From positions 1,558,116-1,622,115 of the forward strand of contig CP070835.1 in the NCBI GenBank assembly GCA_020341775.1: a stretch of 64,000 nt of DNA. The letters are read 5' to 3'. A program made the translations under genes and the position numbers. Shown in pieces: positions 17,930-47,212 of this stretch (the first letter of the stretch is position 1; each line of letters opens with the position of its first letter). Under the pieces are notes generated by a model, which saw only the letters and a list, made by a program, of their open reading frames with translations, was not told the DNA's origin and searched no databases. This stretch comes from Candidatus Bathyarchaeota archaeon (lineage in GTDB: Archaea > Thermoproteota > Bathyarchaeia > Bathyarchaeales > SOJC01).

Positions 17930-19014
17930 TCACCTAAGGTTTCTATGAATGCCTCAACTCGGTTCCTAATTCGATTAATTTCCTGGGTCGGGCTCTCATA
18001 GTCCACTAGTAAACTGGGAATTCCGTCAGAAGCCAATTTGTTTCTTATGTGCACAAAGTCGTATAAGATCGGGTCGCAGAACTTTTCAGCATATGTTATC
18101 ACTCCCCGAGCATTGAAAGAAGCTACCATGTCGCTTAAGTAGCGTAGCCGGTCGTCAAGAGGGTTTTGAGCTGGACAAGGAGTTCTCGTAAGATATCTGC
18201 TGGTCAACGCTGAAAGAGGATCCTGAGACGGTTCAACATTGTCCCAGAAGTATCTTGAACCAGTGCACAGGTCGTCCGACACCACGAAACCTCCGGAGTC
18301 CTCTATAACCGTTATTAGGTTGAGATCATAAATGGCTGTGCCGTTTACATGCAGCCTGATGTTGCCTTGACCCTTGCCACTTCCGAATTCTGAAGCTTCG
18401 ACCAACGCGTTGAATTCCTGCTTCGACATCCATGCGCTGGCTAGGACCAGGCTGAAGTAATCTGATGCCTTGACCTTGTATTCGTTGTTTCGGTTCAACA
18501 AGTAGATGTTTCTGAGCAGATCTCTAGTGTGGTTGCACAATTCAATAGCGCTCTGCAACGAGTTATTATTGATTTCCGTGACAAAATTCCTTTCCAGAAA
18601 CATTTTCAACCTCCTAAATTCCATTCTCATAAAATCAAACGACAGCTCATTCTTCGTATTGTGGGGTACGCGAAGGAAAAACAGGGGTTTGTTGACTTTC
18701 TTTTTTAGGATGTCGAAAATTCTCCACATAGGATCACAGGTGTGCGCGACGATGAAGCCCTGGAACAGGTCTTCAAGCCTCAAGATGTTTTCTAACACAG
18801 CGCTCGCGAAGGGACAAATGAAACTCGGCGTGAGAGAACTTGTGTGTTCCCCTATGTTTGAGATTCTGTAGGGCTGAAGACCTGCTGCGATAATTATCTC
18901 TTCCGGAATACCACTGCACATGTACCCAACAACTTTAGCCTCCCCGTCGTTGTGTCGACGTAGTAAGGAAGTGGGGTCCCGGGAGAACTCGCGCATTTTC
19001 CTTTGTATTTGCAT
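17926..19014 (-). CDS. 2-hydroxyacyl-CoA dehydratase/benzoyl-CoA reductase family subunit (BcrC/HgdB-like)
   Basis: 362-residue HgdB-family protein, first gene of the minus-strand dehydratase operon. The characteristic start of the fold, KVVGYMCSGIPEEIIIAAG, is at about residues 26-44, then HTCDP, the DDLCTGSRYFWD motif shared with BcrC, and a C-terminal EKFCDP segment. The three cysteines in these motifs are the usual [4Fe-4S] ligands. The pair plus its dedicated activator forms a complete dehydratase system that would convert an (R)-2-hydroxyacyl-CoA to a 2-enoyl-CoA; substrate unknown. Confidence 0.83.
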   Translation of the reverse strand: MQIQRKMREFSRDPTSLLRRHNDGEAKVVGYMCSGIPEEIIIAAGLQPYRISNIGEHTSSLTPSFICPFASAVLENILRLEDLFQGFIVAHTCDPMWRIFDILKKKVNKPLFFLRVPHNTKNELSFDFMRMEFRRLKMFLERNFVTEINNNSLQSAIELCNHTRDLLRNIYLLNRNNEYKVKASDYFSLVLASAWMSKQEFNALVEASEFGSGKGQGNIRLHVNGTAIYDLNLITVIEDSGGFVVSDDLCTGSRYFWDNVEPSQDPLSALTSRYLTRTPCPAQNPLDDRLRYLSDMVASFNARGVITYAEKFCDPILYDFVHIRNKLASDGIPSLLVDYESPTQEINRIRNRVEAFIETLGD

Positions 19015-25734: not shown

Positions 25735-26219
25735 ATTGTAGCTAGCATTTTTTTCAGAATATCCGAGAATCTTTTGGCTGCTGCTCTTCGTTTCCGTGTA
25801 TTCAGAGTATTCGCGTCAACATACTGCAAAGCCATTGGTTGACAAAACTTTACACAGATTGGTTCACCGTTGCACAGGTCGCATTTGATGATTTTCTTGG
25901 TTTCATCATCAACTCCAATACCACCAAAGGGGCAGAATTGCATACATAACCTGCATCCAACACACAGCTCTTTATCGATGACTAAGGCTTGTGTGTTGGA
26001 ATCTCTTTTTATAGCATGCATGGGACAAACAGATTCGCAAATCGGTATGTCGCATTGTTGGCAAACCATTGGGATGTAAATGCCTTCATTTTCCCATTTT
26101 GTCACGCGGATTCTTGCTTTTTCAGGTGTACATGTTTTTTCGTTATAGATAGAGCATGATGTTTCGCAGAGTCGGCAGCCTGTGCATTTTTCAGGGTCGA
26201 CGGCTAACATTTTTTGCAT
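25731..26219 (-). CDS. Ferredoxin-type electron-transfer subunit with four [4Fe-4S] motifs (AOR partner)
   Basis: 162 residues with four cysteine groups: CTGCRLCETSC, CQQCDIPICESVCP, CVGCRLCMQFCP and CDLCNGEPICVKFC, enough for four [4Fe-4S] clusters, as in DmsB/HybA-like subunits. It directly follows the AOR gene on the minus strand (11 bases), so it is probably the electron acceptor of that tungstoenzyme, comparable to the ferredoxin-like AorA subunits of bacterial AOR complexes. Confidence 0.88.
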   Translation of the reverse strand: MQKMLAVDPEKCTGCRLCETSCSIYNEKTCTPEKARIRVTKWENEGIYIPMVCQQCDIPICESVCPMHAIKRDSNTQALVIDKELCVGCRLCMQFCPFGGIGVDDETKKIIKCDLCNGEPICVKFCQPMALQYVDANTLNTRKRRAAAKRFSDILKKMLATI

Positions 26220-26230
26220 GCCATGTCACC

Positions 26231-28120
26231 TTATATTAGGTTTGATGGCTCTTTGTCGAGACCTAGCTTCTTCAGCGTTCCCGCTGTGGGAATGCCATCA
26301 TTGCCCCATCCGTGAAGTTTGTAATACTCATCCAGCATTTTACTGAATTTCTCTCTATCGATTTTCTTGTTTTTAGCAACTGGCAGTCCAATGGGTGTAG
26401 GTTCTTTGAAGTAACGTTCTGGTAGGTTGTCATCTTTTCTTGAAAAGCCTTCGCGCAGGTTGAACAGTCTTTCGATGGTGTAGATTCTTTCTCCGATTTC
26501 CATGAGTTGTGTCTCTGAAATTTCCACTCCTGTTGCTAGTTGAATGAGCTTTGAGAATTCCTTCCATTGAGGGGCATGCACTGAGCAGAAAACTGTTTGG
26601 AACTTGCATAATCCAATTGAGTCTGTCACGGCGTAGAGTCGTTCTTGCCACCAAACCATTCTGGGTTTTCCGTAATAGGAATTATATTCAGAAGCGACGG
26701 GACCGCCATATACTTCTTCCAAAAGGTCTTCAGGCAAACCATACATGTCTATGGCGGGGCGGCTTCGTAGGTGGTCGGCACCTCTTGTGGAGGTTGCGAT
26801 GCCCAAGGCAAAGCTTGGTGTTGGGCGTTCGTCTGAGTGGAGGTTGCTCATGCCTTTTACTTGAATGGCATAATACTCCGAGCCGTTGCCGATTTTGGCG
26901 ATTGCTTTTTTGAATCCGTCTGCAAGCGTATTTCCGAAGCCCTTTCGGTGGGCGATGTTAGTTATCATTTCATACAGGGCTTCTTCGTTGCCCCACTCTA
27001 GCTTTAGTCCATCTGTCATTTTGTCGTTGAGTATTCCTTTTTCATAGAGCTCCATGGCCCATGCAATTAGTCCTCCAGTTTCTAATGTGTCAACGCCATA
27101 TTTGTTGACTAGGTGATTTGCTACTAGGATTGTTTCCATTTTCCTGCAGTCAATCATTGTGCCAAAGGCTCCTAGCGAAGTGTATTCCGGGCCTTCTCCA
27201 TAAAGCGGGGCATGTGGACCTTCTCTAAGTACGTAGCGGTGTCGGCAGTGGACAGCACATCCGTAGCACCCTGATGTTCCGATGGAGTAGCGGTCTATGT
27301 TCTCTGGTTCTAGGTCTTGTCCTTCTTCTAGTCTATTGAGTTGGAAGTTTCTTGTTCTGATTAAACCAGTGGTGTTTGTGTTGCTATAGATTATCATTGT
27401 GCCCCATCGCGATTGTGCCTTCGACCAGCGGGTGCTTGTGATCATGTCGTTCATTTGTCTGCAGTATTCAAGAAGTCTGTCTGGATGAGCAAACTCGAGG
27501 GGAGTTGTTCCTCTGGCTGCGATTGCTTTGAGATTCTTTGAGCCCATCACGCAGCCCATGCCTGTTCTACCGGCAGAGTTTTTCATTCCAGTTAGTATAT
27601 TAGCGAATTTCACCAAGTTTTCGCCAGCAACGCCGATGACTAGAGATTTTATGTTCTCGTCATCTTGGTCTTTTCTTATGATTGTCTGTGTCTCGAAAGT
27701 GTCTTTGCCCCAAAGGTGCGAGGCTTCTTTAATTTCGATTTCATCATTCTTGACTAGAAGATAAACTGGTTTCTCGGCTTTTCCTGTTATGGCAAGGTGG
27801 TCGAAGCCTGTGAATCTTAGTTCGGGTGCAAAGAAGCCTCCTATGTTTGAATCGCCGACCGCACCTGTGAGTGGTGACTTGGCTGCTATATCGCATCGTC
27901 CTGAGCCTAGGCAGGGTATTCCACCTAATAGTCCCGCTCCAACTAGCAATACGTTTTGGGGGCTTAGTGGGTCGATTTTTGGCTTTAAATGGTTGTAGAG
28001 CATGTACATGTCGATGCCTCTGCCTCCGATGTACATGGTTCGGATTTTTTTGGGCATTGCTTTTTGAGAAAGTTTTTTTGTTGTAAGGTTTATGTATGCT
28101 ATTTTTCTTTTCTGGACCAT
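26231..28120 (-). CDS. Aldehyde:ferredoxin oxidoreductase family tungstoenzyme
   Basis: 629-residue AOR-family protein. N-terminal GGRGIDMYML and GDSNIGGFFAPELRFTGFDHL match the tungstopterin-binding domain. The [4Fe-4S] ligands are visible as GCYGCAVHC near 280 plus a later Cys in DSIGLCKF. RTGMGCVMGSKNLKAI is also family-typical. Expected reaction is oxidation of an aldehyde to an acid with reduction of ferredoxin, or the reverse. Genes for a MoaD-like protein, a small zinc ribbon and a ferredoxin flank it in one operon. BamB, the class II benzoyl-CoA reductase subunit, is also in this family, but the other Bam subunits are absent, so an aldehyde enzyme is preferred. Confidence 0.88.
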   Translation of the reverse strand: MVQKRKIAYINLTTKKLSQKAMPKKIRTMYIGGRGIDMYMLYNHLKPKIDPLSPQNVLLVGAGLLGGIPCLGSGRCDIAAKSPLTGAVGDSNIGGFFAPELRFTGFDHLAITGKAEKPVYLLVKNDEIEIKEASHLWGKDTFETQTIIRKDQDDENIKSLVIGVAGENLVKFANILTGMKNSAGRTGMGCVMGSKNLKAIAARGTTPLEFAHPDRLLEYCRQMNDMITSTRWSKAQSRWGTMIIYSNTNTTGLIRTRNFQLNRLEEGQDLEPENIDRYSIGTSGCYGCAVHCRHRYVLREGPHAPLYGEGPEYTSLGAFGTMIDCRKMETILVANHLVNKYGVDTLETGGLIAWAMELYEKGILNDKMTDGLKLEWGNEEALYEMITNIAHRKGFGNTLADGFKKAIAKIGNGSEYYAIQVKGMSNLHSDERPTPSFALGIATSTRGADHLRSRPAIDMYGLPEDLLEEVYGGPVASEYNSYYGKPRMVWWQERLYAVTDSIGLCKFQTVFCSVHAPQWKEFSKLIQLATGVEISETQLMEIGERIYTIERLFNLREGFSRKDDNLPERYFKEPTPIGLPVAKNKKIDREKFSKMLDEYYKLHGWGNDGIPTAGTLKKLGLDKEPSNLI

Positions 28121-29837: not shown

Positions 29838-29904
29838 TTTTATATAGTAATCCACTGCTATTAGCGTCAACATGAAAAGGGGATATTGGGCTATATGGCT
29901 TTGA
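29838..29904 (+). promoter_or_regulatory. Promoter and possible 10-codon leader ORF before the ring hydrolase gene
   Basis: TTTTATATA at 29838-29846 would place transcription start near 29869-29872. An ATG at 29872 opens a ten-codon frame (MKRGYWAIWL, stop at 29902-29904) that overlaps the ring-hydrolase start in another frame. Its AAAGGGGA also serves as a Shine-Dalgarno site for the main gene. The leader peptide may be accidental. Confidence 0.35.
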
Positions 29905-31052
29905 ATTGGCTACCCAGAGAAAAAGAGCTTAGGAGCCATGATCTCCATGGTAAGCAGCATTGGGGAAGCACGGCTCCACGCACTGTTTACGAGAAGCGAC
30001 CCTTAAGAGACCTTGATGGAAAGGTTGTTGATGATCTTTTTGTCTCTTGGATTATCTTAGACAATCCTCGGCAATACAACTCATATACTACAGAAATGGT
30101 GAAAGGCGTTATAGCAGGTTTTGAAAACGCTTCACTTGACAGAAGCGTCGTGGCAGTTATTTTTACAGCAGTTGGTTCATTGGCATTTTGCACTGGAGGA
30201 AACACAAGAGAATATGCCGAATACTATACAATGCGACCCCACGAATACGGCGAATACATGGAACTCTTCAATCACATGGTTGACTCCATCCTCATGTGCA
30301 AGAAACCAGTAATAAACCGAGTAAACGGCATGCGCGTCGCTGGAGGACAAGAAATTGGAATGGCTTGCGACTTGGCTGTTACTTCCGACCTAGCAATTTT
30401 TGGCCAAGCAGGTCCCAGACATGGCTCATCGCCAGATGGTGGGTCCTCAGACTTTTTACCATGGTACTTGAGCATTGAAGATGCTATGTGGAACTGTGTT
30501 TCCTGCGAGTTATGGAGCGCCTACAAAATGAAAAGACTCGGATTAGTGAGTAAAGTTGTTCCCGTAATCAAGGATGGAAACAAATGGGTCCGCAACCCTG
30601 CTGTTATCCTAGACAAGTATGTGGAAGACGGTGAAATCGTATTCGGCGAGTTCAAGAAAAGCGAAGAAAACAAGAAAGCTATGGCTTACATAAAAGAATC
30701 ACAAGAGCTGAACAAAATTAGTTTCGAACTTCTAGACAAAGAGATGAGCAAAATAGTCTGGACATTCGCAAATCTGTTCCCAGGCTGCTTGATCAAAGCA
30801 ATGGATAGCATACGCGCTAAGAAAAAGTTCTTCTGGAATCACACAAAGGACTACAACCGCCATTGGTTAGCAGCTAACATGAACTATGAGGCATTTTTAG
30901 GCTTCCAAGCTTTCAATACCAGAAAAATCACAGGAAAAGACACAATTGACTTCATTAAATTCCGGCAACTGCTTGCAAAGGGAAAGCTCTCAAATGAAGA
31001 AATGTTTGAGGCGGTTTTACCCAAACCGAAAAGTCAACGAACAGAAAAATAG
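29895..31052 (+). CDS. oah: 6-oxocyclohex-1-ene-1-carbonyl-CoA hydrolase (BamA/Oah family)
   Basis: Crotonase-superfamily ring hydrolase of the benzoyl-CoA pathway: adds two waters to 6-oxocyclohex-1-ene-1-carbonyl-CoA and opens the ring to 3-hydroxypimelyl-CoA. Segments I recognise from Thauera Oah/BamA are APRTVYEKRPL, NPRQYNSYTTEMVKGVIAGF, FCTGGNTREYAEYY, RVNGMRVAGGQEIGMACDL and FGQAGPRHGS. Length 385, as expected for this family and much longer than normal crotonases. ATG at 29895 or TTG at 29886. Forty bases downstream lies the dehydrogenase that makes its substrate. Confidence 0.93.
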   Translation: MALNWLPREKELRSHDLHGKQHWGSTAPRTVYEKRPLRDLDGKVVDDLFVSWIILDNPRQYNSYTTEMVKGVIAGFENASLDRSVVAVIFTAVGSLAFCTGGNTREYAEYYTMRPHEYGEYMELFNHMVDSILMCKKPVINRVNGMRVAGGQEIGMACDLAVTSDLAIFGQAGPRHGSSPDGGSSDFLPWYLSIEDAMWNCVSCELWSAYKMKRLGLVSKVVPVIKDGNKWVRNPAVILDKYVEDGEIVFGEFKKSEENKKAMAYIKESQELNKISFELLDKEMSKIVWTFANLFPGCLIKAMDSIRAKKKFFWNHTKDYNRHWLAANMNYEAFLGFQAFNTRKITGKDTIDFIKFRQLLAKGKLSNEEMFEAVLPKPKSQRTEK

Positions 31053-31091: not shown

Positions 31092-32207
31092 TTGATAAAA
31101 ATGGAGAAAGCCCCAGACAAAATACAAACTTGGCAGATGACTAGACCCTGGATAAAAGACCAGGAAACTGGAAAGACTATTGAAGGTGAACTTAGATCTA
31201 CTGAGATTCCAGTTCCCCAACTTCAACCAACTGAAGTATTGGTCGAAATCGCTGGCTGCGGAGTATGCCACACAGACCTGGGATACTTCTATGGAGGAGT
31301 ACCAACAGTCACGAAGCCACCTCTAACCTTGGGACATGAAATCAGCGGCGTCATCGTAGCTGGAGATAATAATCTCATTGGGAAAAAAGTCATAGTGCCA
31401 GCTGTAATGCCATGTAGAAATTGTTCCATTTGTGCCACTGGAAGAGGAAATCGATGTCTAGCTCAGAAGATGCCTGGAAACAGCTTAGGAATTTACGGCG
31501 GATTTTCCAGCCACATTCCAGTTCCGTCTGCGGATCTGTGCATAGTAGAAGATTGCGGAGATTTTCAACTGCCTGAACTAGCTGTGATCGCAGACGCGGT
31601 GACAACTCCCTATCAAGCCTGTGTGAGAGCAGGTCTTAAGCGAGGAGACAACGTTGTCGTGGTGGGGATAGGGGGCGTAGGAAGCTATGTGGTTCAAATG
31701 GCAAAAGCCTTTGGCGCCAAAACTGTGATTGGCATTGACATTGTTTCCGAGAAACTTGAAAGAGCCCTTCAAAATGGTGCCGATTTTGTCATAAACTCAA
31801 AGGGAAGAGATGCAAAAGACGTTCGTGACGAATTTCAAGAAATCTGTAAGGCTAATAAGCTACCAAGCAAATATGGATGGACAATTTTTGAAGTTACTGG
31901 AATCGCTCCTGCACAAGAAATTGCACTCAACTTATTATCCTTCATCGGGAAATTGATTATCATTGGATTTGGCCCCCAAAAAAATGAGTATAGCATATCA
32001 AGGTTGATGGCATTTGACGCAGAAATCCGAGGCACTTGGGGCTGTTTGCCCGAATACTACGCCAAAGTATTAGAATTGGTCTTAAACAAGACTATCAAGA
32101 TTAGACCTTTCACTGAAACTCGACCAATGAGCAAAATAAAAGAAGTTTTCGAAGAAGCTCATTCTGGCAAACTAATGAAGAGAATTGTCCTTACTCCAGA
32201 CTTCTAA
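31092..32207 (+). CDS. had: 6-hydroxycyclohex-1-ene-1-carbonyl-CoA dehydrogenase (Had family)
   Basis: Zinc-dependent medium-chain alcohol dehydrogenase, 371 residues from the ATA/ATG region; the ATG of MEKAPDK lies at 31101. Catalytic zinc ligands are in GCGVCHTDLGY and LGHEISG. The structural-zinc cysteines are CRNCSICATGRGNRC, the NAD fold is VVVGIGGVGSYVVQ. AGCGVCHTDLGYFYGGV, QKMPGN and GGFSSHIPVP resemble the Thauera Had enzyme. Oxidises the 6-hydroxy group formed by dienoyl-CoA hydratase with NAD+. It lies directly after the ring hydrolase and converges on dienoyl-CoA hydratase. Confidence 0.9.
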   Translation: MIKMEKAPDKIQTWQMTRPWIKDQETGKTIEGELRSTEIPVPQLQPTEVLVEIAGCGVCHTDLGYFYGGVPTVTKPPLTLGHEISGVIVAGDNNLIGKKVIVPAVMPCRNCSICATGRGNRCLAQKMPGNSLGIYGGFSSHIPVPSADLCIVEDCGDFQLPELAVIADAVTTPYQACVRAGLKRGDNVVVVGIGGVGSYVVQMAKAFGAKTVIGIDIVSEKLERALQNGADFVINSKGRDAKDVRDEFQEICKANKLPSKYGWTIFEVTGIAPAQEIALNLLSFIGKLIIIGFGPQKNEYSISRLMAFDAEIRGTWGCLPEYYAKVLELVLNKTIKIRPFTETRPMSKIKEVFEEAHSGKLMKRIVLTPDF

Positions 32208-32208
32208 A

Positions 32209-32985
32209 CTATCTACCTTTCCAATTCGGCTTCCTCTTTTCCAAGAAAGCCTTCAAGCCCTCCACAGCATCTTCAGTTTGCATCAGCTGCTCTAAATATA
32301 TATCAGTTACACCATCCAATGCCTTCTTAAAATCCACATCAATTCCCTGATAAACAGCTTTTCTCACCAGCTTAAGCACAATTGGGCTCAAATTCTTCAA
32401 TTTGTCCACCAACTCATCAACAGCCTTTGTTAATTTTCCTGCAGGAACCACCTTGTTTACCAGTCCCCTCTCTTTTGCCTCAGCTGCACTGATCGTGTCA
32501 CCTAAGAAAATAAGTTCTAAAGCTTGCTTTCTTCCAATTAATCTGGGCATTAATGCTGCGGCTACAGTAGGGATTGCCCCGACTTTGATTTCAGGCTGTC
32601 CAAACTTGGCTTGGTCAGAGGCAATAACAATGTCACAAGCCATCGCCAGCTCACAACCACCACCTAAGGCCAGACCATTAACCATGGCTATCGATGGCTT
32701 ATGAAGATCAGTCAGCAAGTGAAATATCTTGTGAAACTTGGCGAGCGTATTGTCGATTTTATCTGGAAGGTGAGCACCTATATCAACACCAGCTGAAAAG
32801 GCACGGTCACCAATACCAGTAATGACTACAGCATAGATTACTTTGTCAACATTGGCTCTCTCAAGAGCAGATATAATCTCTTCAATTGCCTCAACCGTGA
32901 GAACATTAAGCGGAGGCTTGTTAACGGTTATTTTGGCAACTCCATTCTCCACCTTATAAATAATGCTTTGGAAATCTTGGCTCAA
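32209..32985 (-). CDS. dch: Cyclohexa-1,5-diene-1-carbonyl-CoA hydratase (Dch family)
   Basis: 258-residue crotonase-fold hydratase. Glutamates are present in ALGGGCELAMACD and FGQPEIKVG. The usual GGTQRL after them is replaced by PTVAAALMPRLIG, as in Thauera Dch, and FSAGVDIGAHLPDKID also matches that enzyme. It hydrates the diene product of benzoyl-CoA reductase to 6-hydroxycyclohex-1-ene-1-carbonyl-CoA. TTG start at 32985 with GAGGGT upstream. Transcribed divergently from the reductase genes, with a shared 153-base control region holding a perfect palindrome. Confidence 0.9.
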   Translation of the reverse strand: MSQDFQSIIYKVENGVAKITVNKPPLNVLTVEAIEEIISALERANVDKVIYAVVITGIGDRAFSAGVDIGAHLPDKIDNTLAKFHKIFHLLTDLHKPSIAMVNGLALGGGCELAMACDIVIASDQAKFGQPEIKVGAIPTVAAALMPRLIGRKQALELIFLGDTISAAEAKERGLVNKVVPAGKLTKAVDELVDKLKNLSPIVLKLVRKAVYQGIDVDFKKALDGVTDIYLEQLMQTEDAVEGLKAFLEKRKPNWKGR

Positions 32986-33138: not shown

Positions 33139-34278
33139 TTGACCGAGGAAATATTCCAGCAATTCAGAGATTGGATAGACAACCGACATGAATACGCCAA
33201 AGAATGGAAAGAAAGAACAAATAAAAAAATCATAGGATACCTCTGCACGTATGTACCCGAAGAAATCCTCTATGCTGCTGACATGCTTCCTGTCAGAATT
33301 CTCGGCAGCCACGAACCACCTACTGTTACAGAACCCTATATATTCGCAATGTTTTGCCACCTTTGCAGAGATTGCCTAGCTCAGGGGCTTAAAGGAAGAT
33401 TCAACTACATCGATGGAATCGTGGAAGGACAGTCATGTTTACATCTAAGACAAACCTTCAACGCTTGGAGACTACACATTCCCACAAACTTTGCCCATTA
33501 CATTCACATACCTCACGGAATTCAAAACCCCCACGCAATTCCATACCTCGCACAAGAACTTGCCAAATTCAAGAAGACTCTTGAAGACTGGACTGGCAAA
33601 AAGATAACCAACGAGGGCTTGGACAAAGGAATAAAAATCATGAACAAAAACAGAGAGCTAATGCGGAAAGTCCACGAGTATAGAAAACTGGATAACCCCA
33701 AAATAACTGGTATAGAAGCAATGGAAATGGTTCTTTCAAGCCAAATGGTTGACAAACAGGAACACAGCAAGCTGCTAAACAAGCTTTTGGAAGAATTGCC
33801 AAATAGAAATCTTAACCGAAACCCAGGAACAAGATTAATGATTATTGGAAGCGAAGACGACGACCGAGTATTCATGAAAAACGTTGAAGCCTTAGGCGCA
33901 ACGTTTGTAATTGAGGAACATTGCACTGGTTCACGATACCTATGGGATGATGTAGTCCCAAGTGAGGATAGGTTGATGGCTATAGCTTCTCGCTATGTAA
34001 ACAGAGTCCCATGCCCCAGCAAAGACTGGCCAGAATTCACCAGAATCCAACATGCTGTCAAACTTGCTAAGGATTTTAACGTTCAAGGCGCACTTGTAAT
34101 TCAAAACAAGTTCTGCGACCCACATGGAATTGAAATTCCACCGCTAAGAGAAGCTCTAAAACAAGTTGGCGTTCAAACATACCCTCTGGAATTTGATGTT
34201 ACAGTTCCATGGGGACAATTCCGAACCAGAGTTGAAGCTTTCCTTGAAACCCTAACAGGATTGGAGGAACTTTTCTAA
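33139..34278 (+). CDS. bcrC: Benzoyl-CoA reductase subunit C (BcrC/BzdN-like)
   Basis: One of the two subunits of the substrate-reducing module of ATP-dependent class I benzoyl-CoA reductase, HgdB fold, 379 residues. GYLCTYVPEEILYAADMLPVR is at ~34-54, followed by FCHLCRDCLAQGLKG, EEHCTGSRYLWDDV and QNKFCDPHG, which supply the conserved cysteines. TTG start; no other in-frame start precedes the conserved region. Gene order C-B-D-A-like, a ferredoxin, and pathway enzymes next door support benzoyl-CoA as substrate over a 2-hydroxyacyl-CoA. Confidence 0.9.
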   Translation: MTEEIFQQFRDWIDNRHEYAKEWKERTNKKIIGYLCTYVPEEILYAADMLPVRILGSHEPPTVTEPYIFAMFCHLCRDCLAQGLKGRFNYIDGIVEGQSCLHLRQTFNAWRLHIPTNFAHYIHIPHGIQNPHAIPYLAQELAKFKKTLEDWTGKKITNEGLDKGIKIMNKNRELMRKVHEYRKLDNPKITGIEAMEMVLSSQMVDKQEHSKLLNKLLEELPNRNLNRNPGTRLMIIGSEDDDRVFMKNVEALGATFVIEEHCTGSRYLWDDVVPSEDRLMAIASRYVNRVPCPSKDWPEFTRIQHAVKLAKDFNVQGALVIQNKFCDPHGIEIPPLREALKQVGVQTYPLEFDVTVPWGQFRTRVEAFLETLTGLEELF

Positions 34279-34292
34279 AGAGGCTTTTAAAA

Positions 34293-35624
34293 ATGACTCA
34301 AAAATATCCAATAGAACCATTGAAAATCTGGAACGAAGCCAAGCAGCTCAGAGGAAAGTACTACGAAAATTATCTAGCCGCCCACGAGCTTGGAGGGCTT
34401 CGCTGGGCAGGAGGAGCCTGGTCTTTCAGTGCTATACCTGCTGGTCTTGGTGAGGATGTTTACAGTATAACTGGAGAACCTCATGGAGCCACAATCGCCT
34501 TCTTCAAGGATTTCACTGCCAAATGCCATGATGCTGTTGAAGCCGCAGGTTTTCCGCGAACTCTTTGCGCTTACATGAGAAACTATTGGGGATCCATCCT
34601 GCTTGACAAGTACATTCAAGCAGATGGCAATGTGGTTGATGAGCATCCAGTCCCTGACTTCATATGGCAAGACCACATCTGCTGCAGCCATGCGAAATGG
34701 TATCAGGTAGCAAGATGGCTTGAAGAAAAGAAGGGAAAAAAGGTTCCAATGTACTGCGTAGATGTTTCGGTTGGCTACTCAATGGATAAACCTCTAGAAG
34801 ATTACAAGATAAACTACATCGTTCAACAATTAAACGACGGAATTGAATGGCTAGAGAAAGTCACTGGAAGAACATACAACGACAAACTGCTCTGTGAAGC
34901 CGTCTGGAATGAGATCAATGCTACAAAGATCTGGGCTGAAATATGCACCTTAAACCAAACTATTCCAGCACCCCTCGATGAAAAAACGATGTATTCGCTC
35001 TATGTTATGGGAACACTTATGAAACATCGACCAGAATGCGTCGACATTTACAGGAAGTTAAAGGCTGAGGTAGAAGACAGAGTAAGAAGAGGAATAGCGG
35101 CAGTAGCTAACGAAAAATACAGAGTAATTACCGACACACAGCCTCCTTGGGGTTTTCTAAAGATTTTCAGAGAAATGGAAAAATATGGGGTTGTTTCGCT
35201 TGGCTCCCTCTACACATTTGGACTGATTGGAATGTGGAAATATCGCCCAGACGGAACATGGGCTCCAAAAGATCTCCCACTTGAAAAACCTCAGACAAGA
35301 GAAGAAGCAGTGAAAATGATTGTTGAATGGACTGTTGACCGACCTGAATGGGCCCACTTCTATCTACCAGAGGTGAAGACAAAAATGATCTTAAGCATCG
35401 TTAAGCAGTGGAAGGTTGACGCGGTTCTGCTTCATTACAACAGAGGCTGCGAAGGCTTAAGCGTCCACATAGCTGAAAACCGCCACGGACTAGTAAAAGC
35501 TGGCGTGCCAGTCTTCCCATTTGAGGGAAATATGGGTGACGAAAGAGAATTCGATTTCCCAGGAACCCTAGCTCGGCTAACAGCCTTCTTCGAAAGTATG
35601 GGATTAAAAAAACTAAAGGAATAG
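34293..35624 (+). CDS. bcrB: Benzoyl-CoA reductase subunit B (BcrB/BzdO-like)
   Basis: 443 residues, second subunit of the benzoyl-CoA-binding module. Recognisable BcrB segments are GGLRWAGGAWSFSAIPAGLG near 30-50, TLCAYMRNYWGS, DHICCSHAKWYQ, TIPAPLDEKTMYSLYV, TQPPWGFLKIFREMEKYG and PFEGNMGDEREFD. These are more specific than the general HgdA/B fold and separate it from the other two dehydratase-family pairs here. Cysteines in CAYMRN, ICCSH and RGCEG would bind the cluster. Starts 15 bases after bcrC. Confidence 0.93.
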   Translation: MTQKYPIEPLKIWNEAKQLRGKYYENYLAAHELGGLRWAGGAWSFSAIPAGLGEDVYSITGEPHGATIAFFKDFTAKCHDAVEAAGFPRTLCAYMRNYWGSILLDKYIQADGNVVDEHPVPDFIWQDHICCSHAKWYQVARWLEEKKGKKVPMYCVDVSVGYSMDKPLEDYKINYIVQQLNDGIEWLEKVTGRTYNDKLLCEAVWNEINATKIWAEICTLNQTIPAPLDEKTMYSLYVMGTLMKHRPECVDIYRKLKAEVEDRVRRGIAAVANEKYRVITDTQPPWGFLKIFREMEKYGVVSLGSLYTFGLIGMWKYRPDGTWAPKDLPLEKPQTREEAVKMIVEWTVDRPEWAHFYLPEVKTKMILSIVKQWKVDAVLLHYNRGCEGLSVHIAENRHGLVKAGVPVFPFEGNMGDEREFDFPGTLARLTAFFESMGLKKLKE

Positions 35625-35637
35625 GAGAAAACAAAAA

Positions 35638-36441
35638 ATGATAACAGCTGGAATAGACGTAGGAGCCAAATACGCAAAAATCGTGGTCCTTGAAGATGGA
35701 AAAAGTATACTCACACGAGCTAACGGCATAGTCGGATTTGACATTCTAAAATCTGTAACAGCAGTCTCTGAAAAAGCCTTGGACGGCACAGGTTTGAAGC
35801 GCGACCAGATCACTCGCATAGTAGCAACGGGAATGGGAAGAAAAGCCATCCATAGGACACCTCCAATAAACGCTGAAGAAATAGTACCAGATGTAATCGC
35901 AGACGCAAAAGGAACACACCATCTAATCTCAACGGTCAAAACAGTAATTGATGTTGGAGCTGAAGAAGGAAGGGGAGTCAAAGTCGATGAAAACGGGAAA
36001 GTGAGAGACTTCGTCATCAACGAAAGATGCGCCGCAGGGGCTGGAACATTCATCGAAACCATGGCTAGAGCCCTAGAAGTAAAAGTCGAAGATATGGGCC
36101 TCCTAGCACTAAAATCCACAGAAGCCATACCAATGAACGCCCAATGCTGCGTCTTCGCCGAATCAGAAGTGGTTACCCTCATTCACTCAAGAGTCACAAA
36201 AGAAAACATATCAAAAGCAATCCACGATGCCATGGCAGGGAGAATAGCTTCAATGGTGCTGAGGGTGGGCGTAGAAAAAGACGTAGCATTAATTGGAGGA
36301 GTAGCGCAAAATCCGGGATTCTTGCCGCCCCTGAAAAAGGAGTTGAACACCGAAATCATTGTTCCTGAACACCCTCAATATGTAGGTGCTTTTGGAGCTG
36401 CTTTGCTTGCACTTGAAATGGAGGGACACCAAAATGAGTGA
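35638..36441 (+). CDS. bcrD: Benzoyl-CoA reductase ATPase subunit D (BcrD/BzdP-like)
   Basis: 267-residue ATPase of the activator module. Cluster cysteines are Cys131 (NERCAAGAGTF) and Cys170/171 (NAQCCVFAESEVV). In place of the GGQDSKAI loop of HgdC it has DVGAEEGRGVK, the form I associate with BcrD/BzdP subunits. It forms a heterodimer with the following ATPase, sharing one [4Fe-4S] cluster and coupling ATP hydrolysis to electron transfer into BcrBC. SD ATAGGAGA upstream; overlaps the next gene by eight bases. Confidence 0.92.
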   Translation: MITAGIDVGAKYAKIVVLEDGKSILTRANGIVGFDILKSVTAVSEKALDGTGLKRDQITRIVATGMGRKAIHRTPPINAEEIVPDVIADAKGTHHLISTVKTVIDVGAEEGRGVKVDENGKVRDFVINERCAAGAGTFIETMARALEVKVEDMGLLALKSTEAIPMNAQCCVFAESEVVTLIHSRVTKENISKAIHDAMAGRIASMVLRVGVEKDVALIGGVAQNPGFLPPLKKELNTEIIVPEHPQYVGAFGAALLALEMEGHQNE

Positions 36442-37315
36442 AAAATCCAAGGAATTTTGGAGATGGCGAGAATATAGACACACAATGCCAAACATGGATT
36501 GGCACGACGCAAAAATGGTCACAGCTGGCGTGGACATAGGATCAGTAGGTAGCAAGGCTGCGGTCATGCTTGACGGAGAACTTTACACATACGCAGCCAT
36601 GCGAACAGGCGGAGTAAGTGAAGAAACTGCAGTCAAAGCCATGAACTGGGCTATTGAAGAGACAGGGCTAAAAACCGAAGATATTCATTACGTCGTTGGA
36701 ACTGGCTATGGCCGCGTAAATGTTCCGTTCGCAAAAAGAACGATAACAGAAATTGCTTGCCACGCAAGAGGAGCCCATTACATTTATGGACCAACTGTTC
36801 GAACAGTTCTCGACATTGGAGGACAAGACTGCAAAGCCATAAGATGCGACGAAAAAGGAAAAGTCATGTCCTTTCTCATGAACGACAAATGTGCAGCTGG
36901 GACAGGAAGGGGTCTTGAAGTCTTCGCGGATTTGATTAGAACTCCAATCGAAGAGCTTGGAAAGACTTCATTGAGCGTGCAAGATGAACCTCAACCAGTA
37001 AGCAACACTTGCGTGATTTTTGCAAAAGCAGAATCTGTAGCTCTTCTGCGCCAAGGATGGCCAAAGGAAAAAGTTTCAGCAGCCTACCATCTCGCTATGG
37101 TTAACCGCATAATCGACTTACTTACAAAGGTTGGGATCGAAAAAGACTTCGTCGTCACAGGAGGAGTCGCGAAAAACACAGGAATAGTTTCCAGGCTTGA
37201 GCGAAATCTCAAACTGAAGCCCCTTGAACCCAAGTTGGATCCAATTCTGGCCGGAGCCATAGGATCCGCACTGTTCGCTAAGGCTCTTTATGAAAAAGAA
37301 ATAGGCCTACGTTAA
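36434..37315 (+). CDS. bcrA: Benzoyl-CoA reductase ATPase subunit A (BcrA/BzdQ-like)
   Basis: Second ATPase of the activator heterodimer, 293 residues from the ATG at 36434; an in-frame ATG at 36386 would add 16 residues inside bcrD. The N-terminal extension FWRWREYRHTMPNMDW precedes the ATPase core, as in BzdQ. DIGSVGSKAAVM is at 34-45, DIGGQDCKAI at 127-136, and the cluster cysteines are Cys153 (NDKCAAGTGRG) and Cys193 (SNTCVIFAKAE). The eight-base overlap with bcrD indicates coupled synthesis of the two partners. Confidence 0.92.
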   Translation: MSEKSKEFWRWREYRHTMPNMDWHDAKMVTAGVDIGSVGSKAAVMLDGELYTYAAMRTGGVSEETAVKAMNWAIEETGLKTEDIHYVVGTGYGRVNVPFAKRTITEIACHARGAHYIYGPTVRTVLDIGGQDCKAIRCDEKGKVMSFLMNDKCAAGTGRGLEVFADLIRTPIEELGKTSLSVQDEPQPVSNTCVIFAKAESVALLRQGWPKEKVSAAYHLAMVNRIIDLLTKVGIEKDFVVTGGVAKNTGIVSRLERNLKLKPLEPKLDPILAGAIGSALFAKALYEKEIGLR

Positions 37316-37329
37316 GGGGAGGATGCAAA

Positions 37330-37614
37330 ATGAAGGCTTATTATGGCTACAAGGACGGTTCGGGGGACTATTTCATCATCATTGACACCGACAAATGCAA
37401 TGGGTGCAGGAAGTGTGTCGACGCATGTCCTCATAGAGTTTTTGAACTAATCAAAGATGAATTCGACATTGAAGGAGGATTAATGGCGGCTGTAACTGAG
37501 GAACATCGCAAGAAAATCAAGTATAGCTGTGGACCCTGCAAACCAATGAGCGGAGAACGAAAACTTCAGTGCGTCCTGGCATGTGAAGCCAAGGCAATAA
37601 CCCATTCTTGGTAG
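37330..37614 (+). CDS. Ferredoxin of the benzoyl-CoA reductase operon
   Basis: 94-residue ferredoxin. The first motif is CNGCRKCVDACPHRVFEL; the second half is stretched, with CGPCKPMSGERKLQCVLAC, so a second cluster site is likely but with a long insert. Strong GGGGAGGAT Shine-Dalgarno site eight bases upstream. Location 14 bases after bcrA and before the large electron-transfer fusion suggests that it is the direct electron donor to the reductase, as ferredoxin is in Thauera and Azoarcus. Confidence 0.9.
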   Translation: MKAYYGYKDGSGDYFIIIDTDKCNGCRKCVDACPHRVFELIKDEFDIEGGLMAAVTEEHRKKIKYSCGPCKPMSGERKLQCVLACEAKAITHSW

Positions 37615-37623
37615 GGATAACCT

Positions 37624-40149
37624 ATCTCGGAAATCGTTACATTATTCATCAACGACATCGAAATGAAAGCCAGTAAAGGTACAACAATTCTCGAAGCAGC
37701 AAGAAAGATAGATGTTTACATCCCTGCTATTTGCTTTCATCCTGACCTACCTTCTCCCATCAAGGCTAAATCCATAAAAGCAGTTTACCGTGGCACCCAG
37801 AAAATCGACAATCGTTCCTCAGAAAAGGAGTTTGAAGGCTGTAAATTATGCCTAGTCCAAGTTGAGGGCCGAGAAGAACTTGTTCTCGCATGCTGTACAC
37901 CAGTTTCTGAAAACCTGAAAGTTCGCACCGAAACGCAGCAAGTTCAAAAGGCAAGAAAAACTCAACTAATGCACATTCTAGCCAAACACCCACACGCATG
38001 CCTAATCTGCGCCCAAAAGGAAGGCTGCACAACAGAGCCATGTTCAACAAACGTTCCTGTAGAGGAACGTTGCTGCCCAGAGTTCGGCAAATGCGAGCTC
38101 GAGAGAGTATCAGAATACATTGGAATCAGAGAAGACACACCCAGATATATCCCGCAAAACCTACCTGTAATAGAGAATGAACCACTCTTCCTACGCGACT
38201 ACAACCTCTGCATTGGATGCACCCGATGCGTCAGAGTGTGCCAAGAAGTTCGCGGTGTTGGAGCCTTAGGTTTCGTTCACAAAAATGACGAAGTCTTAGT
38301 CGGAACTGTTGAGCCAACGTTTATCGATTCTGACTGCAAATTCTGTGGAGCGTGCGTAGAGGTCTGTCCAACTGGAGCCCTACGAGATAAGGAATTAAAA
38401 GCTGCAAAACATGAAGTTGCTTTAATCCCATGTAAATATACTTGCCCAGCAAATGTCGATGTTCCAAGATATGTCAAACTAATATCTGAAGGTAAATTTG
38501 CTGATGCCGCAGCCGTAGCAAGAGAGAAGTTGCCTTTGCCAAACGTTCTGGCTCATGCTTGTTCTCGTCCGTGCGAAAGTGCATGTAGGCGGCTAGATGT
38601 CAACGAAGCTGTTTCAATCTGTGGTTTGAAGCGCTCTGCAATGGAAAATGATGATGAAACATGGAAAGACAAACTGGAGCCTACAGAACCGAAAGGGAAG
38701 AAAATCGCTATAATAGGCTCTGGTCCAGCTGGACTAAGTGCAGCTTACTACTTGGCCAGACTAGGATATCAGGCAACCGTTTTCGAGACCATGTCAGAAC
38801 CAGGTGGAATGATGCGATACGGAGTTCAAGAGTACCGTCTGCCAAAAGAAATTGTTGAGAAAGACATTAGAGAAATCGTCAATTTAGGCGTAGAAATCAA
38901 GACCGATGCTGCCCTTGGAAAGGATTTTACAGTTGAATCTCTTAAGAATGAAGGCTATGACGCAATTCTTATTTCCGTTGGCTTGCAGACCAGCAGAAAG
39001 CTGAAAGTCGAAGGTGCCGACTTAGCAGGGATCGTAGGTGGACTAGACTTCTTAAGGAATGTTAGACTTGGCAAAGCCTCAAACCTAGAAGGAAAAGCCT
39101 TAGTAATCGGAGGAGGCAGCGTTGCAATAGACACTGCTCTGACAGCCCTAAGACTAGGAGCCAACAACGTACAACTTGCTTGCTTAGAGAAAACTGAAGA
39201 AATGCCAGCCTTTCCATGGGAGGTTCAGCAAGCCCTTGAAGAAGGAGTGAAAATTCACAACTCCTTTGGAGTCAACAAGATTTTAGGTAAAAATGGTAGA
39301 GTAGCTGCAGTTGAGCTTATGCATTGCCTTTCAGTTTTCGATAAAGAGGGAAGATTTAATCCATCCTTTAATGAAGAAGAAACAATGCAGATTGAAATTA
39401 ACACGCTTATACTTGCAATAGGGCAAGCCCCAGACCTTCCATCGCTAACAGCAAGCCAGTTGAAGCTGTCAGAGTCGGGATTAATTGATGTAAACTCCTC
39501 CACATTGGAAACCAGTATGTCAAGCGTGTTTGCATGCGGAGACATCGCAGAAGGCCCAACTTCGATAGTGAAAGCTTTGGCTTCAGGTAAGCAAGGTGCA
39601 TTTGCCATCGACAAATATTTTGGAGGAATAGGAAATCTTGAAGACAGATTTATAGAGATTGAAAAGCCAAATCCTTGGTTAGGAAAAATGGAAGAATTCG
39701 GCTACAAACAATCTATCCAAATGCCTTGCTTGCCAATTGATGAAAGAAAGGGCAATTTCTCTGAGGTTGAACTTGGATACGACGAAAAAATGGCACGAGA
39801 TGAAGCCAGTCGGTGCCTAAGATGCGATTTGAGAATGGATATACAGCAAGCTTACCAACCCCCAGAGAAATGGTTGCCACTAACAGAAGAGGGCCTAAAA
39901 ACTGTACTAGAAACAGAAGGCGTCTACCAACTTTTGAATGATGATAAGGAAATTATTTACATAAAAGGAACAATGAACCTCAAAAAAGAGTTGGAACAAC
40001 AGCTCACAACTGGCACCAAGGCAAAATACTTCATTTATGAAGAAGCAAAGATGTACACCATGAGAGAGAGTGAATCGCTTCAACAATACATGAAACGACA
40101 TGGAAAAATGCCAGAACAAAACATGGAAATTGAAGAAGATCTGTATTAA
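37624..40149 (+). CDS. NuoG/GltD-like multi-cluster flavoprotein, candidate NAD(P)H-ferredoxin oxidoreductase of the pathway
   Basis: About 840 residues. Domains in order: a [2Fe-2S] NuoG-type domain (IPAICFHP, then CKLC and a further Cys), a His-Cys3 cluster site (HACLICAQKEGC), a two-cluster ferredoxin domain (CIGCTRCVRVC and CKFCGACVEVCP), then a GltD/NfnB-like module with CKYTCPANVDVPRY, FAD site IIGSGPAGLSAAYY, NAD(P) site VIGGGSVAIDTAL, and VFACGDIAEG. The last ~75 residues form a separate small domain (GVYQLLNDDKEIIYIKG). The first ATG (37663) cuts into the [2Fe-2S] fold; homology-like sequence extends to ~37624, where the codon is ATC after AGGGA. Likely recycles the ferredoxin used by BcrCBDA. 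Confidence 0.85.
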   Translation: MSEIVTLFINDIEMKASKGTTILEAARKIDVYIPAICFHPDLPSPIKAKSIKAVYRGTQKIDNRSSEKEFEGCKLCLVQVEGREELVLACCTPVSENLKVRTETQQVQKARKTQLMHILAKHPHACLICAQKEGCTTEPCSTNVPVEERCCPEFGKCELERVSEYIGIREDTPRYIPQNLPVIENEPLFLRDYNLCIGCTRCVRVCQEVRGVGALGFVHKNDEVLVGTVEPTFIDSDCKFCGACVEVCPTGALRDKELKAAKHEVALIPCKYTCPANVDVPRYVKLISEGKFADAAAVAREKLPLPNVLAHACSRPCESACRRLDVNEAVSICGLKRSAMENDDETWKDKLEPTEPKGKKIAIIGSGPAGLSAAYYLARLGYQATVFETMSEPGGMMRYGVQEYRLPKEIVEKDIREIVNLGVEIKTDAALGKDFTVESLKNEGYDAILISVGLQTSRKLKVEGADLAGIVGGLDFLRNVRLGKASNLEGKALVIGGGSVAIDTALTALRLGANNVQLACLEKTEEMPAFPWEVQQALEEGVKIHNSFGVNKILGKNGRVAAVELMHCLSVFDKEGRFNPSFNEEETMQIEINTLILAIGQAPDLPSLTASQLKLSESGLIDVNSSTLETSMSSVFACGDIAEGPTSIVKALASGKQGAFAIDKYFGGIGNLEDRFIEIEKPNPWLGKMEEFGYKQSIQMPCLPIDERKGNFSEVELGYDEKMARDEASRCLRCDLRMDIQQAYQPPEKWLPLTEEGLKTVLETEGVYQLLNDDKEIIYIKGTMNLKKELEQQLTTGTKAKYFIYEEAKMYTMRESESLQQYMKRHGKMPEQNMEIEEDLY

Positions 40150-44834: not shown

Positions 44835-45962
44835 ATGCAGCCGATGGATGTTCTAAGACCATTTAGGACCCTACTTTCAATCAAACACGATGTGGCCAGA
44901 AGTTGGCAGGCCAAAGGCAAACATCTAGTTGGCTGGAGTTGTGCTTACACACCAGAGGAACTGATCTATGCTGCCAATTCTATCCCTATCATGGTCTCCG
45001 GAAGTCTTGAACCCTCAAAGCATGCTGATGTTTACTTACCCATCAACACATGTTCTTTTGTCCGCAGCTGCTTTGACTCAGCGCTTAAGGGGGATTACGA
45101 GTACCTAGACGGATTAGTTATATCCAACAGTTGCGACAACCGAAACAAGATCTTTGACCTGTGGAAACACCATGTTAAAATCCCCTATGTACACTTCATA
45201 AACACTCCCCACACCAGAACAGAAGGGACGCACAACTTCTTTTATGACGAAATTTTCCGGTTTAAAACTTCATTACAAGTGACTTTTGGAGAAAAGCTTT
45301 CAGACACCACTCTCAAGAATGCAATCAGAATTTTCAATGAGAATAGACTCCTTTTGAAGAAGGTTTATGACTTGAGGATGAAAGACCCCCCATTGATATC
45401 CGGGGCGGAAGCGCTAGAAATTGTGCTCTCCAGCATGGTGACATCAAAGGAAGAACATAATGTATTGCTGAAACGACTACTTGCGGGAGCCTCCAATCGT
45501 GCCGATCCACCAAAAGGCGGAGTCAGACTACTTGTATCGGGTAGTGTAGTGGATAACTCGAAACCAATCAGAATTATCGAAGCGATTGGCGGCAGCGTTG
45601 TTGCAGATGACTTGTGCACAGGCTCGAAATATTTTTGGGATCTTGTTAGTTCCCACGGTGACCCATTGCGAGCTATCGCAAAACGGTATTTAGATAAGGT
45701 TTCGTCGTCTTTCATGTTGGAGCCCGGTACAAATTTCAGCCACACTATTGAGATGGCAGAGCGATTTGATGTCGAAGCTGTAATAGTTTTCGCCTTAAAG
45801 TTTTGCGATACCCACATGTTTGATGCGCCACAACTCGTAAAAGAATTCGAAGCTCGAGATTTGCCCGTCTTATATTTAGAATGGGAACATTCTTTGAGCG
45901 GTTCAGCTCAGCTAAAGACAAGAATTGAAGCGTTCTTAGAAATGGTAAAGGGAGTAGGGTAG
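44835..45962 (+). CDS. 2-hydroxyacyl-CoA dehydratase/BCR family subunit (BcrC/HgdB-like), third set
   Basis: 375 residues with the HgdB-fold features HLVGWSCAYTPEELIYAAN near residue 30, NSCDNRNKIFDLW, DDLCTGSKYFWD and ALKFCDTH. It is closer in layout to the BcrC-type subunits than to BcrB. No activator ATPase is adjacent, so it may share the HgdC-like ATPase at 15930 or one of the Bcr ATPases. Two bases separate it from its partner gene. Substrate unknown; the preceding PanE-type reductase hints at a 2-hydroxyacyl-CoA. Confidence 0.82.
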   Translation: MQPMDVLRPFRTLLSIKHDVARSWQAKGKHLVGWSCAYTPEELIYAANSIPIMVSGSLEPSKHADVYLPINTCSFVRSCFDSALKGDYEYLDGLVISNSCDNRNKIFDLWKHHVKIPYVHFINTPHTRTEGTHNFFYDEIFRFKTSLQVTFGEKLSDTTLKNAIRIFNENRLLLKKVYDLRMKDPPLISGAEALEIVLSSMVTSKEEHNVLLKRLLAGASNRADPPKGGVRLLVSGSVVDNSKPIRIIEAIGGSVVADDLCTGSKYFWDLVSSHGDPLRAIAKRYLDKVSSSFMLEPGTNFSHTIEMAERFDVEAVIVFALKFCDTHMFDAPQLVKEFEARDLPVLYLEWEHSLSGSAQLKTRIEAFLEMVKGVG

Positions 45963-45964
45963 CA

Positions 45965-47212
45965 GTGGTCGAAGCGAAGCAGAAACGCAGAAGGCGACTG
46001 CAAGCCACTAAAGGCTTCTACAAAGCTTATATCAAGAAGTTTTACAGGGACGCTCACAAAGCCAAGGCTGAGGGAAAGCCGGTCGCGTGGGTTGCTTCAA
46101 CGTTTCCAGTTGAGATACTGCAGGCGATGGATATTTTTCCCGTTTGGCCTGAAAACTATGCCTCTCTGTGCGCAGCTAAACGGGTCGCTGTGAAGTTTTG
46201 TGAAATCGCGGAAAGCAGGAACTTTTCTAAAGACCTTTGCTCCTATGCAAGATGTGTGATTGGTTCACTTTCGGATAAGGAGAATTCGCCCGAGGAAGGC
46301 CTGCCGAGACCAGACATGCTTGTTGCGTCAACAGGGGCATGCGACACTCATTTTAAATGGTTTCAATATATTGGTGATCGCTTTAAGGCTCCATTGCACC
46401 TTTTAAACATGCCCTACAACATCAGTGGTGCAGACTCGGAGCATCTTGAAAAAGCACACATCGAGTTTTACATTTCTCAACTGAAAGAGCTGATTGATTT
46501 CCTCGAGGAGAAAACTGACACGAAACTGGATAAAAAAAGACTAAAAGAAATTACAGCTCTTTCTGACCGCACAAGCCAACTATGGGGGGAAATTCAACAC
46601 TATCGAAAAACCATTCCATCGCCAATGGACGCGCGCGACGCATTTTCCGCAGTGTTCTTCCTACTTAGTATTCCAGGTTCTCCAGCAGCAGTCGAATTTT
46701 ATGAAAGACTGCGAAACGAAGTTAAAGAGCGAGCAGAAAACAAGTTTGGTGCAGCAGAGACCGAGAACTACAGACTAGTTTGGGACAACCTCCCCCCTTG
46801 GTTTGACCTCAAGTTCTTTGAATATCTCAACACCCTAGGCGCAGTTGTTGTCGCAGAAACATTTTCTCATGTTTGGATGGGAAGACTAGATCCCTCTAGA
46901 CCTTTTGAGAGCTTTGCTAAGAAGTATTTACCAAACTTCGCAAATTGCAGCATAGATAGGAAAATTCACTTGATACAAGATCTTGCTGAGGAATTCAGCG
47001 CTGACGGTGTAATTCTCCCCACCAACTGGGGTTGTAGAATGATGTCCATAGGGGAAACAGCTGTTAAGGAAGAGGTTTACAGGAAGCTAGGAGTGCAAAG
47101 CCTCATAGTGAACATGGATTCCACAGATCGGAGAAACTACGATGAAGCTCAGATCAAGAGAAACATGGAAGTCTTCCTTCAGGTGTTGAATGAAAAGAAC
47201 CAGAATGGATAA
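45965..47212 (+). CDS. 2-hydroxyacyl-CoA dehydratase/BCR family subunit (BcrB/HgdA-like), third set
   Basis: 415 residues, partner of the preceding gene. PVAWVASTFPVEILQAMDIFP near the N-terminus, KDLCSYARCVIGS, TGACDTHFKWFQ, TNWGCRMM and the final IVNMDSTDRRNYDEAQIK match the family and parallel the subunit at 16709 closely. GTG start two bases after the upstream stop. Similarity between the two non-Bcr sets suggests that they are paralogous systems for different acyl-CoAs. Confidence 0.82.
   Translation: MVEAKQKRRRRLQATKGFYKAYIKKFYRDAHKAKAEGKPVAWVASTFPVEILQAMDIFPVWPENYASLCAAKRVAVKFCEIAESRNFSKDLCSYARCVIGSLSDKENSPEEGLPRPDMLVASTGACDTHFKWFQYIGDRFKAPLHLLNMPYNISGADSEHLEKAHIEFYISQLKELIDFLEEKTDTKLDKKRLKEITALSDRTSQLWGEIQHYRKTIPSPMDARDAFSAVFFLLSIPGSPAAVEFYERLRNEVKERAENKFGAAETENYRLVWDNLPPWFDLKFFEYLNTLGAVVVAETFSHVWMGRLDPSRPFESFAKKYLPNFANCSIDRKIHLIQDLAEEFSADGVILPTNWGCRMMSIGETAVKEEVYRKLGVQSLIVNMDSTDRRNYDEAQIKRNMEVFLQVLNEKNQNG

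Follow-up and report, generated by a model that had tools for sequence, protein, structure and literature searches.

A candidate NAD(P)H:ferredoxin oxidoreductase combining NuoG, GltD and GIY-YIG-like modules in the benzoyl-CoA reductase operon of a Bathyarchaeia archaeon

Class I benzoyl-CoA reductase is a costly enzyme that consumes ATP and requires a ferredoxin of very low potential. Its use complicates the energetics of benzoate fermentation (PMC5736913). GltD-type or related proteins have already been described at this reductase, namely BzdV, a bzd-operon oxidoreductase assigned with KorAB to ferredoxin regeneration in Azoarcus-type clusters (PMC5736913, PMC8163825), and AadN of Rhodopseudomonas palustris, a GltD/Nfn-type protein needed for electron supply to the reductase during growth on benzoate (PMC9973337). 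The combination of NuoG and GltD in one polypeptide is also known, from a transhydrogenase: StnC of the Sporomusa-type StnABC complex (PDB 8oh5; PMC10482914) carries NuoG-type [Fe–S] and GltD-type FAD/NAD(P)H modules in one chain. Here, we describe a NuoG-GltD-GIY-YIG fusion gene (37624..40149) in the bzd-type benzoyl-CoA reductase operon of Candidatus Bathyarchaeota archaeon. It lies in a window of 64,000 nucleotides (contig CP070835.1, positions 1,558,116 to 1,622,115), to which coordinates refer unless another source is named; features are on the plus strand unless stated. No paper on a NuoG-GltD fusion at a benzoyl-CoA reductase was found in the literature searched, which excluded most subscription journals. 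Within that literature, the new elements are a Leu-Glu pair in place of Arg-Arg, a 22-residue insert with four Cys, and a degenerate GIY-YIG C-terminus.

Judged from its sequence and neighborhood, the fusion is probably an NAD(P)H:ferredoxin oxidoreductase in one chain, dedicated to the bzd-type reductase and pulled by it without bifurcation. The strongest argument that the fusion and the 2[4Fe–4S] ferredoxin work together is their adjacency: of the 28 loci in which the 5′ end can be read (17 from Bathyarchaeia, 3 from other members of the phylum and 8 from Acidobacteriota), every one has the ferredoxin gene as the immediate upstream neighbor of the fusion. In Bathyarchaeia, the profile of the C-terminal domain (A2) identified the fusion in 22 of 257 genomes at E <1e-30, and bzdO scored above its cut-off in 20 of the 257, all of them among the 22. 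The two fusion-bearing genomes without a bzdO match have a contig that starts inside bzdQ (G204) or a run of Ns that cuts the sequence at the fusion (G184). Among Acidobacteriota, bzdO was present in 6 of 297 sampled genomes, and in all 6 the fusion adjoined the ferredoxin; three more genomes of the same archaeal phylum, outside Bathyarchaeia, also carry the fusion behind the ferredoxin. G649 has two DNA-repair-like genes, for a DUF790 protein and a helicase, between bzdQ and the ferredoxin, yet keeps ferredoxin and fusion side by side. Every full fusion found accompanies bzd genes, rather than lying mainly beside unrelated dehydrogenases. It is thus a well-supported prediction that the two proteins work together and that the fusion serves ferredoxin supply to benzoyl-CoA reductase. 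The hypergeometric P for co-occurrence was 7.6e-28, a figure that treats related genomes as independent and is therefore no real probability.

The sole copy with no bzd genes on its contig (17 kb), in G281, is divergent and truncated at its 5′ end. Its 5′ part does not match the fusion family, which may reflect either a rearranged gene or an assembly fault. Split or truncated copies in G183, G055, G058, G059, G184, G192 and G205 were rejected as real variants, as they end at contig ends or 100-N joins.

The reading frame of the fusion is uninterrupted between 37621 and 40149. It encodes 841 residues from a probable ATC start at 37624. A start at the first ATG (37663) would give 828, and this ATG is not preceded by any ATG, GTG or TTG after the upstream stop. 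Because a start at 37663 would remove the conserved first β-strand, the real start is probably the ATC, where homology begins. Six relatives (L037, L107, L108, L015, L017 and L018) likewise have no canonical start before the conserved ILEAA segment. The ATC is found 9 nucleotides 3′ of the ferredoxin stop in the window (37612-37626) and in L014, L037, L107, L108, L098 and L018, and the simplest reading is that initiation at 37624 would be coupled to ferredoxin translation. The first-pass annotation had placed the start at the same coordinate, and its description of a single chain of about 840 residues directly behind the reductase genes and the ferredoxin is borne out by the 841-codon frame, the Pfam domains and the invariant residues. 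Read-through from ferredoxin into fusion, suggested by a common frame in the window and several relatives, was rejected in view of two stops in the window (TAG GGA TAA) and the different frame in L015.

Counting residue 1 at 37624, Pfam matches were Fer2_4 at residues 5-104, Fer4_Nqo3 at 191-253, Fer4_20 at 269-344, Pyr_redox_2 at 360-655 and DUF7508 at 749-816, with NADH-G_4Fe-4S_3 (111-135) slightly below its cut-off. Ligand conservation was counted in 19 full-length relatives, and that of H122 in a ten-sequence alignment. The chain begins with a NuoG-type [2Fe–2S] domain (37636..37935; PF13510) with Cys 37, 73, 76 and 90, invariant except for C90 (18/19); between Cys 37 and Cys 73 the family has about 25 extra residues not shared by the other sequences fetched. 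A His-Cys3 motif follows (37987..38028; H122-x3-C126-x2-C129-x5-C135), with all Cys conserved in 19/19 and the His invariant in the ten sequences; it aligns with its counterparts in NuoG, HydA and FdsA. A Cys-rich insert of 22 residues (38029..38094) separates the His-Cys3 motif from the CEL segment; its surplus Cys 140, 150, 151 and 157 are conserved in 19/19 and missing from the first-pass list. Among the sequences fetched this Cys pattern occurs in fusion genes only, and it may form an extra Fe–S or Zn site. The two ferredoxin-like [4Fe–4S] clusters (38194..38385; PF22117) would be held by Cys 196/199/202/206 and 238/241/244/248 (19/19). The GltD-type Fe–S domain (38422..38655; PF14691) has Cys 270, 274, 313, 317 and 321 together with Lys336, again 19/19, and leads into the FAD and NAD(P)H domains (38701..39588; PF07992, E 6.7e-32; PDB matches StnC, NfnA and NfnL), with motifs GSGPAGL, GGM.RYG, VIGGGSVAID and ACGD. 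An EASRCLRC motif (39802..39834; C731 and C734, 19/19), in which Cys of the GltD cluster have moved C-terminally, supplies the CxxC that precedes the small C-terminal domain. Pfam matches and invariant residues thus confirm every module previously listed, and the flavin- and NAD(P)-binding motifs are intact and kept in the 19 relatives. Assignment as the small subunit of glutamate synthase was rejected: the named NCBIfam GltD models fell far below their cut-offs (PRK12814, 441 of 916 bits; PRK12771, 429 of 516 bits), and the annotated neighbors include no GltB-type large subunit.

StnC is the closest characterized relative in architecture. It shares with the fusion the Lys at the FAD-proximal cluster, the conserved Arg of the YRL motif and the displaced C-terminal CxxC. 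However, GltD in StnC is inserted between the [2Fe–2S] domain and the ferredoxin-type clusters, which are then followed by an FdhF-like domain, whereas in the fusion GltD comes after the complete N-terminal NuoG set, there is no FdhF domain, and the chain ends in the GIY-YIG-like domain. The fusion also has no NuoF partner, and it carries Leu-Glu where StnC has Arg-Arg. The best match of the GltD region was NfnA of PDB 9n5u (sequence only), also with Lys at the FAD-proximal position. NfnL/NfnB (PDB 5jca, 4ylf) share the GltD fold, the FAD site and the NAD(P) site in a match of about 220 bits, but their Glu ligand, Arg-Arg and NfnS partner are all absent from the fusion. AadN is a fused NfnSL with both subunits, whereas the fusion has a NuoG module and no NfnS part. 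BzdV, compared by description and not by sequence, differs in being reported with korAB in Chloroflexi.

An acidic residue after the second Rossmann β-strand usually selects NADH. At this position the fusion has Leu521-Glu522 (39184..39189), and the five aligned PDB chains (NfnA, the 9bov molybdopterin oxidoreductase, StnC and two NfnL) have the Arg-Arg that binds the 2′-phosphate in NADPH-dependent relatives. Leu-Glu occurs in 17 of the 19 full-length members; Arg-Arg is retained in G186 (L114), G187 (L113) and the partial copy of G192 (L105). The fusion of the window and most of its relatives are therefore predicted to be probably NADH-specific. As G192 has Arg-Arg and its genus-mate G193 carries Leu-Glu, cofactor preference seems to have switched within the family, in the same operon type. 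Both Had and the 3-hydroxyacyl-CoA dehydrogenase, steps that normally make NADH, are encoded in the window, and a preference for NADH would fit the pathway because its own dehydrogenases produce it. The two forms offer a naturally occurring comparison of coupling to NADH and to NADPH. Leu-Glu is also present in other GltD proteins, most of about 700 residues, such as L025:9938-12028 and similar genes in L026-L036 (Bacillota and others). The L025 protein is fused to FlpD and its gene is followed by one for methylenetetrahydrofolate reductase. This set (L025-L036) was retrieved partly with the peptide EEMPAFPW, so that its common CLE motif is search-biased.

In the mechanism that we favor, NADH would pass a hydride to the FAD in the GltD part, from which electrons would travel one at a time over the GltD clusters, of which the FAD-proximal one probably has Lys as fourth ligand, to the two ferredoxin-type clusters, the His-Cys3 cluster, the [2Fe–2S] cluster and finally the neighboring ferredoxin, which would deliver them to BzdNOPQ. 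We infer direction, cofactor and order of transfer alike. The step from NADH to ferredoxin is uphill at standard potentials. Bifurcation would not be needed if, as we propose, the reductase pulls the step forward through its ATP hydrolysis and its consumption of reduced ferredoxin. The presence of a GltD-type protein at the same step in two other lineages, BzdV with KorAB (PMC5736913, PMC8163825) and AadN (PMC9973337), counts in favor of this mechanism.

Several points weigh against it. Reduction of a very-low-potential ferredoxin by NADH is strongly uphill, and a single chain without a second acceptor relies on pull alone. Reduced ferredoxin could also come from elsewhere in the genome, which encodes an NfnSL pair and has five alpha-type genes for 2-oxoacid:ferredoxin oxidoreductases. 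The NADH assignment depends on a two-residue rule, and the three archaeal members that retain Arg-Arg indicate that one fixed cofactor is not essential. Finally, an AlphaFold2 model of the full chain from ten sequences (predicted local distance difference test, pLDDT, 53.5; predicted template modeling score, pTM, 0.35) was too poor to place clusters or flavins.

The energetic argument favors bifurcation, and the alternative that best survives is that the fusion is part of a bifurcating or confurcating complex, like StnC in StnABC, in which an unlinked partner or an unrecognized site of its own couples a second acceptor. StnC, the closest characterized NuoG-GltD protein, works only within its complex (PMC10482914), the surplus Cys insert might hold another cluster, and the Nfn homologue AadN acts at this same reductase in R. 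palustris. However, the FAD of StnC is non-bifurcating; the cluster proximal to it has three Cys and Lys170 as ligands, the Lys taking the place of a Glu in NfnB. The bifurcation site of Stn is the FMN of the NuoF-like StnB (PMC10482914). Alignment to StnC and NfnL places Lys336 of the fusion, invariant in 19/19, at K170 of StnC, whereas the NfnL chains have Glu. NuoF (PF01512) was not found in the host genome, estimated to be 86% complete, nor in 13 of the 22 fusion-bearing Bathyarchaeia, seven of which are at least 90% complete (90-99%). No partner gene is conserved after the fusion across loci, and there is no NfnS domain in the fusion and no NfnS gene among its neighbors in the operon. The same genome has a separate NfnL-type gene with Glu (LER) beside an NfnS-like gene, at 1.13 Mb; both kinds are therefore present in the genome, and the one in the bzd operon is that with Lys. 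We consider such a complex unlikely. The first-pass annotation had proposed that the protein regenerates the ferredoxin of the reductase, perhaps by bifurcation with a partner not seen: synteny and co-occurrence uphold the link to ferredoxin, and Lys336, the absence of NuoF and the lack of a conserved partner leave bifurcation by the fusion unsupported.

It is slightly more doubtful that 2-oxoacid:ferredoxin oxidoreductases mainly supply the reductase while the fusion mainly runs in reverse and passes electrons from excess reduced ferredoxin to NAD(P)+, a role proposed for KorABC/BzdV. In Thauera, KorAB is accepted as the reductant, in Chloroflexi it occurs together with BzdV, and one of the five alpha-type (POR/KOR) genes of the genome (1884214) lies about 3 kb from a GltD-like gene. 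Against such a reverse role, no Kor genes were recognized beside the bzd operon within the window, and a ferredoxin sink encoded together with the reductase would be wasteful of low-potential electrons. In L143 (G000 1883000-1893000), a 2-oxoacid oxidoreductase gene stands beside HdrA/FlpD-like and GltD-like genes, possibly a KorABC-type unit of the host.

There is a small chance that the fusion provides a single-chain route to low-potential ferredoxin unlike those of Nfn, Stn and HydABC, one that would use the surplus Cys insert, need no NuoF- or NfnS-type partner and dock to ferredoxin or reductase through its GIY-YIG domain. If true, it would represent a new class of ferredoxin-reducing flavoenzyme for benzene-ring reduction in archaea. 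That the fusion is an ordinary GltD-family protein and a chance neighbor of the reductase is very improbable: GltD-type proteins are common, with four other strong ones elsewhere in the genome, but in both archaea and bacteria the full fusion was found with bzd genes and nowhere else, and co-occurrence contradicts chance.

The small C-terminal domain (39859..40146; PF24348/DUF7508) has an AlphaFold2 model (pLDDT 77.6) of β-β-α-β-α topology, and the best Foldseek match was 2lwf, the N-terminal GIY-YIG domain of the plant glutaredoxin GRXS16 (template modeling score, TM, 0.73; root-mean-square deviation 1.8 Å), with the UvrC GIY-YIG domain 1yd6 at TM 0.63; both matches had probability 1.00, yet E slightly above 0.001. 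The A2 profile also retrieves a UvrC-like protein (E 2.2e-6). Unlike the domains of UvrC and GRXS16, that of the fusion has no catalytic Arg and no conserved pair of signature Tyr: no member has Arg at its position, which most fill with Glu, Asp, Ala or Ser, and Phe, Ile, Val, Leu and Cys occur at the Tyr positions. Because of these replacements, the domain, although of GIY-YIG fold by prediction, is probably not a nuclease. Most likely, it would act as a non-catalytic docking or assembly module. GRXS16, also a redox protein, offers a precedent for a GIY-YIG domain on such a protein, with two parts that regulate each other (PMC5890173). Recruitment of a dead nuclease fold by a redox enzyme would be an evolutionary oddity for which GRXS16 is the sole precedent found. 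A separate archaeal family has a related GIY-YIG-like domain at its N-terminus (L137:4698-5486; G000 1147263), and similar genes for 250-290 residues are present in other Bathyarchaeia.

The genome that contains the window is a single contig of 1.92 Mb. The closest named relatives of the fusion gene are from Candidatus Bathyarchaeota (61-81% identity, mostly full length), and the host is therefore a Bathyarchaeia archaeon. The genes around the fusion are those of the benzoyl-CoA pathway, in the order oah, had, a dienoyl-CoA-hydratase-like gene, bzdN, bzdO, bzdP, bzdQ, ferredoxin and fusion. The first three encode enzymes that act after the reductase. Both oah (29886-31052; TIGR03200) and had (31092-32207; TIGR03201) score above cut-off, and the dienoyl-CoA-hydratase-like gene (32209-32985, minus strand) matches the crotonase family. 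Of the reductase subunits, bzdN (33139..34278), of the HGD-D family (PF06050), falls slightly below its cut-off (TIGR03190, 447.9 bits against 453.8), while bzdO (34293..35624; TIGR03191, 559.9 bits) and bzdQ (36386..37315; TIGR03192, 380.9 bits), the latter a BcrAD/BadFG ATPase subunit, are above theirs. The other such ATPase subunit, bzdP (35638..36441; PF01869, E 6.9e-46; TIGR00241 above cut-off), was assigned by family and position. All four bzdNOPQ genes are thus present, and the enzyme is a class I benzoyl-CoA reductase of bzd type; the earlier name bcrCBDA is just the generic one. The bzdM-like 2[4Fe–4S] ferredoxin (37330..37614; Fer4 families), which adjoins the 5′ end of the fusion in all readable loci, probably accepts electrons from the fusion and hands them on to the reductase. 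Genes for ChsH2-like protein, thiolase, enoyl-CoA hydratase and 3-hydroxyacyl-CoA dehydrogenase lie 3′ of the fusion on the opposite strand.

The fusion represents a concrete candidate, expressible and assayable, for ferredoxin re-reduction in fermentative or acetogenic sediment microbes. In addition, its gene can serve to recognize aromatic-ring reduction in the genomes of uncultured archaea.

Further HGD-D pairs flank the bzd operon at 15930-19014 (with a bzd/Had-like activator ATPase gene) and 44835-47212, and are possibly additional aryl-CoA or 2-hydroxyacyl-CoA enzymes. Genes for an aldehyde ferredoxin oxidoreductase, a 4Fe-4S protein and a CCG-domain protein lie at 24202-28120, near the bzd genes, and an aldehyde ferredoxin oxidoreductase gene also occurs near bzd genes in L015, L037 and L107. 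Two loci, L112 and L110 (G058 and G059), carry a divergent bzdO that belongs to a type with higher scores, about 670 bits. Directly upstream in L112 is a thiolase/ChsH2 pair of the standard kind, and another such pair lies by the 3′ end of the fusion, on a different scaffold piece.

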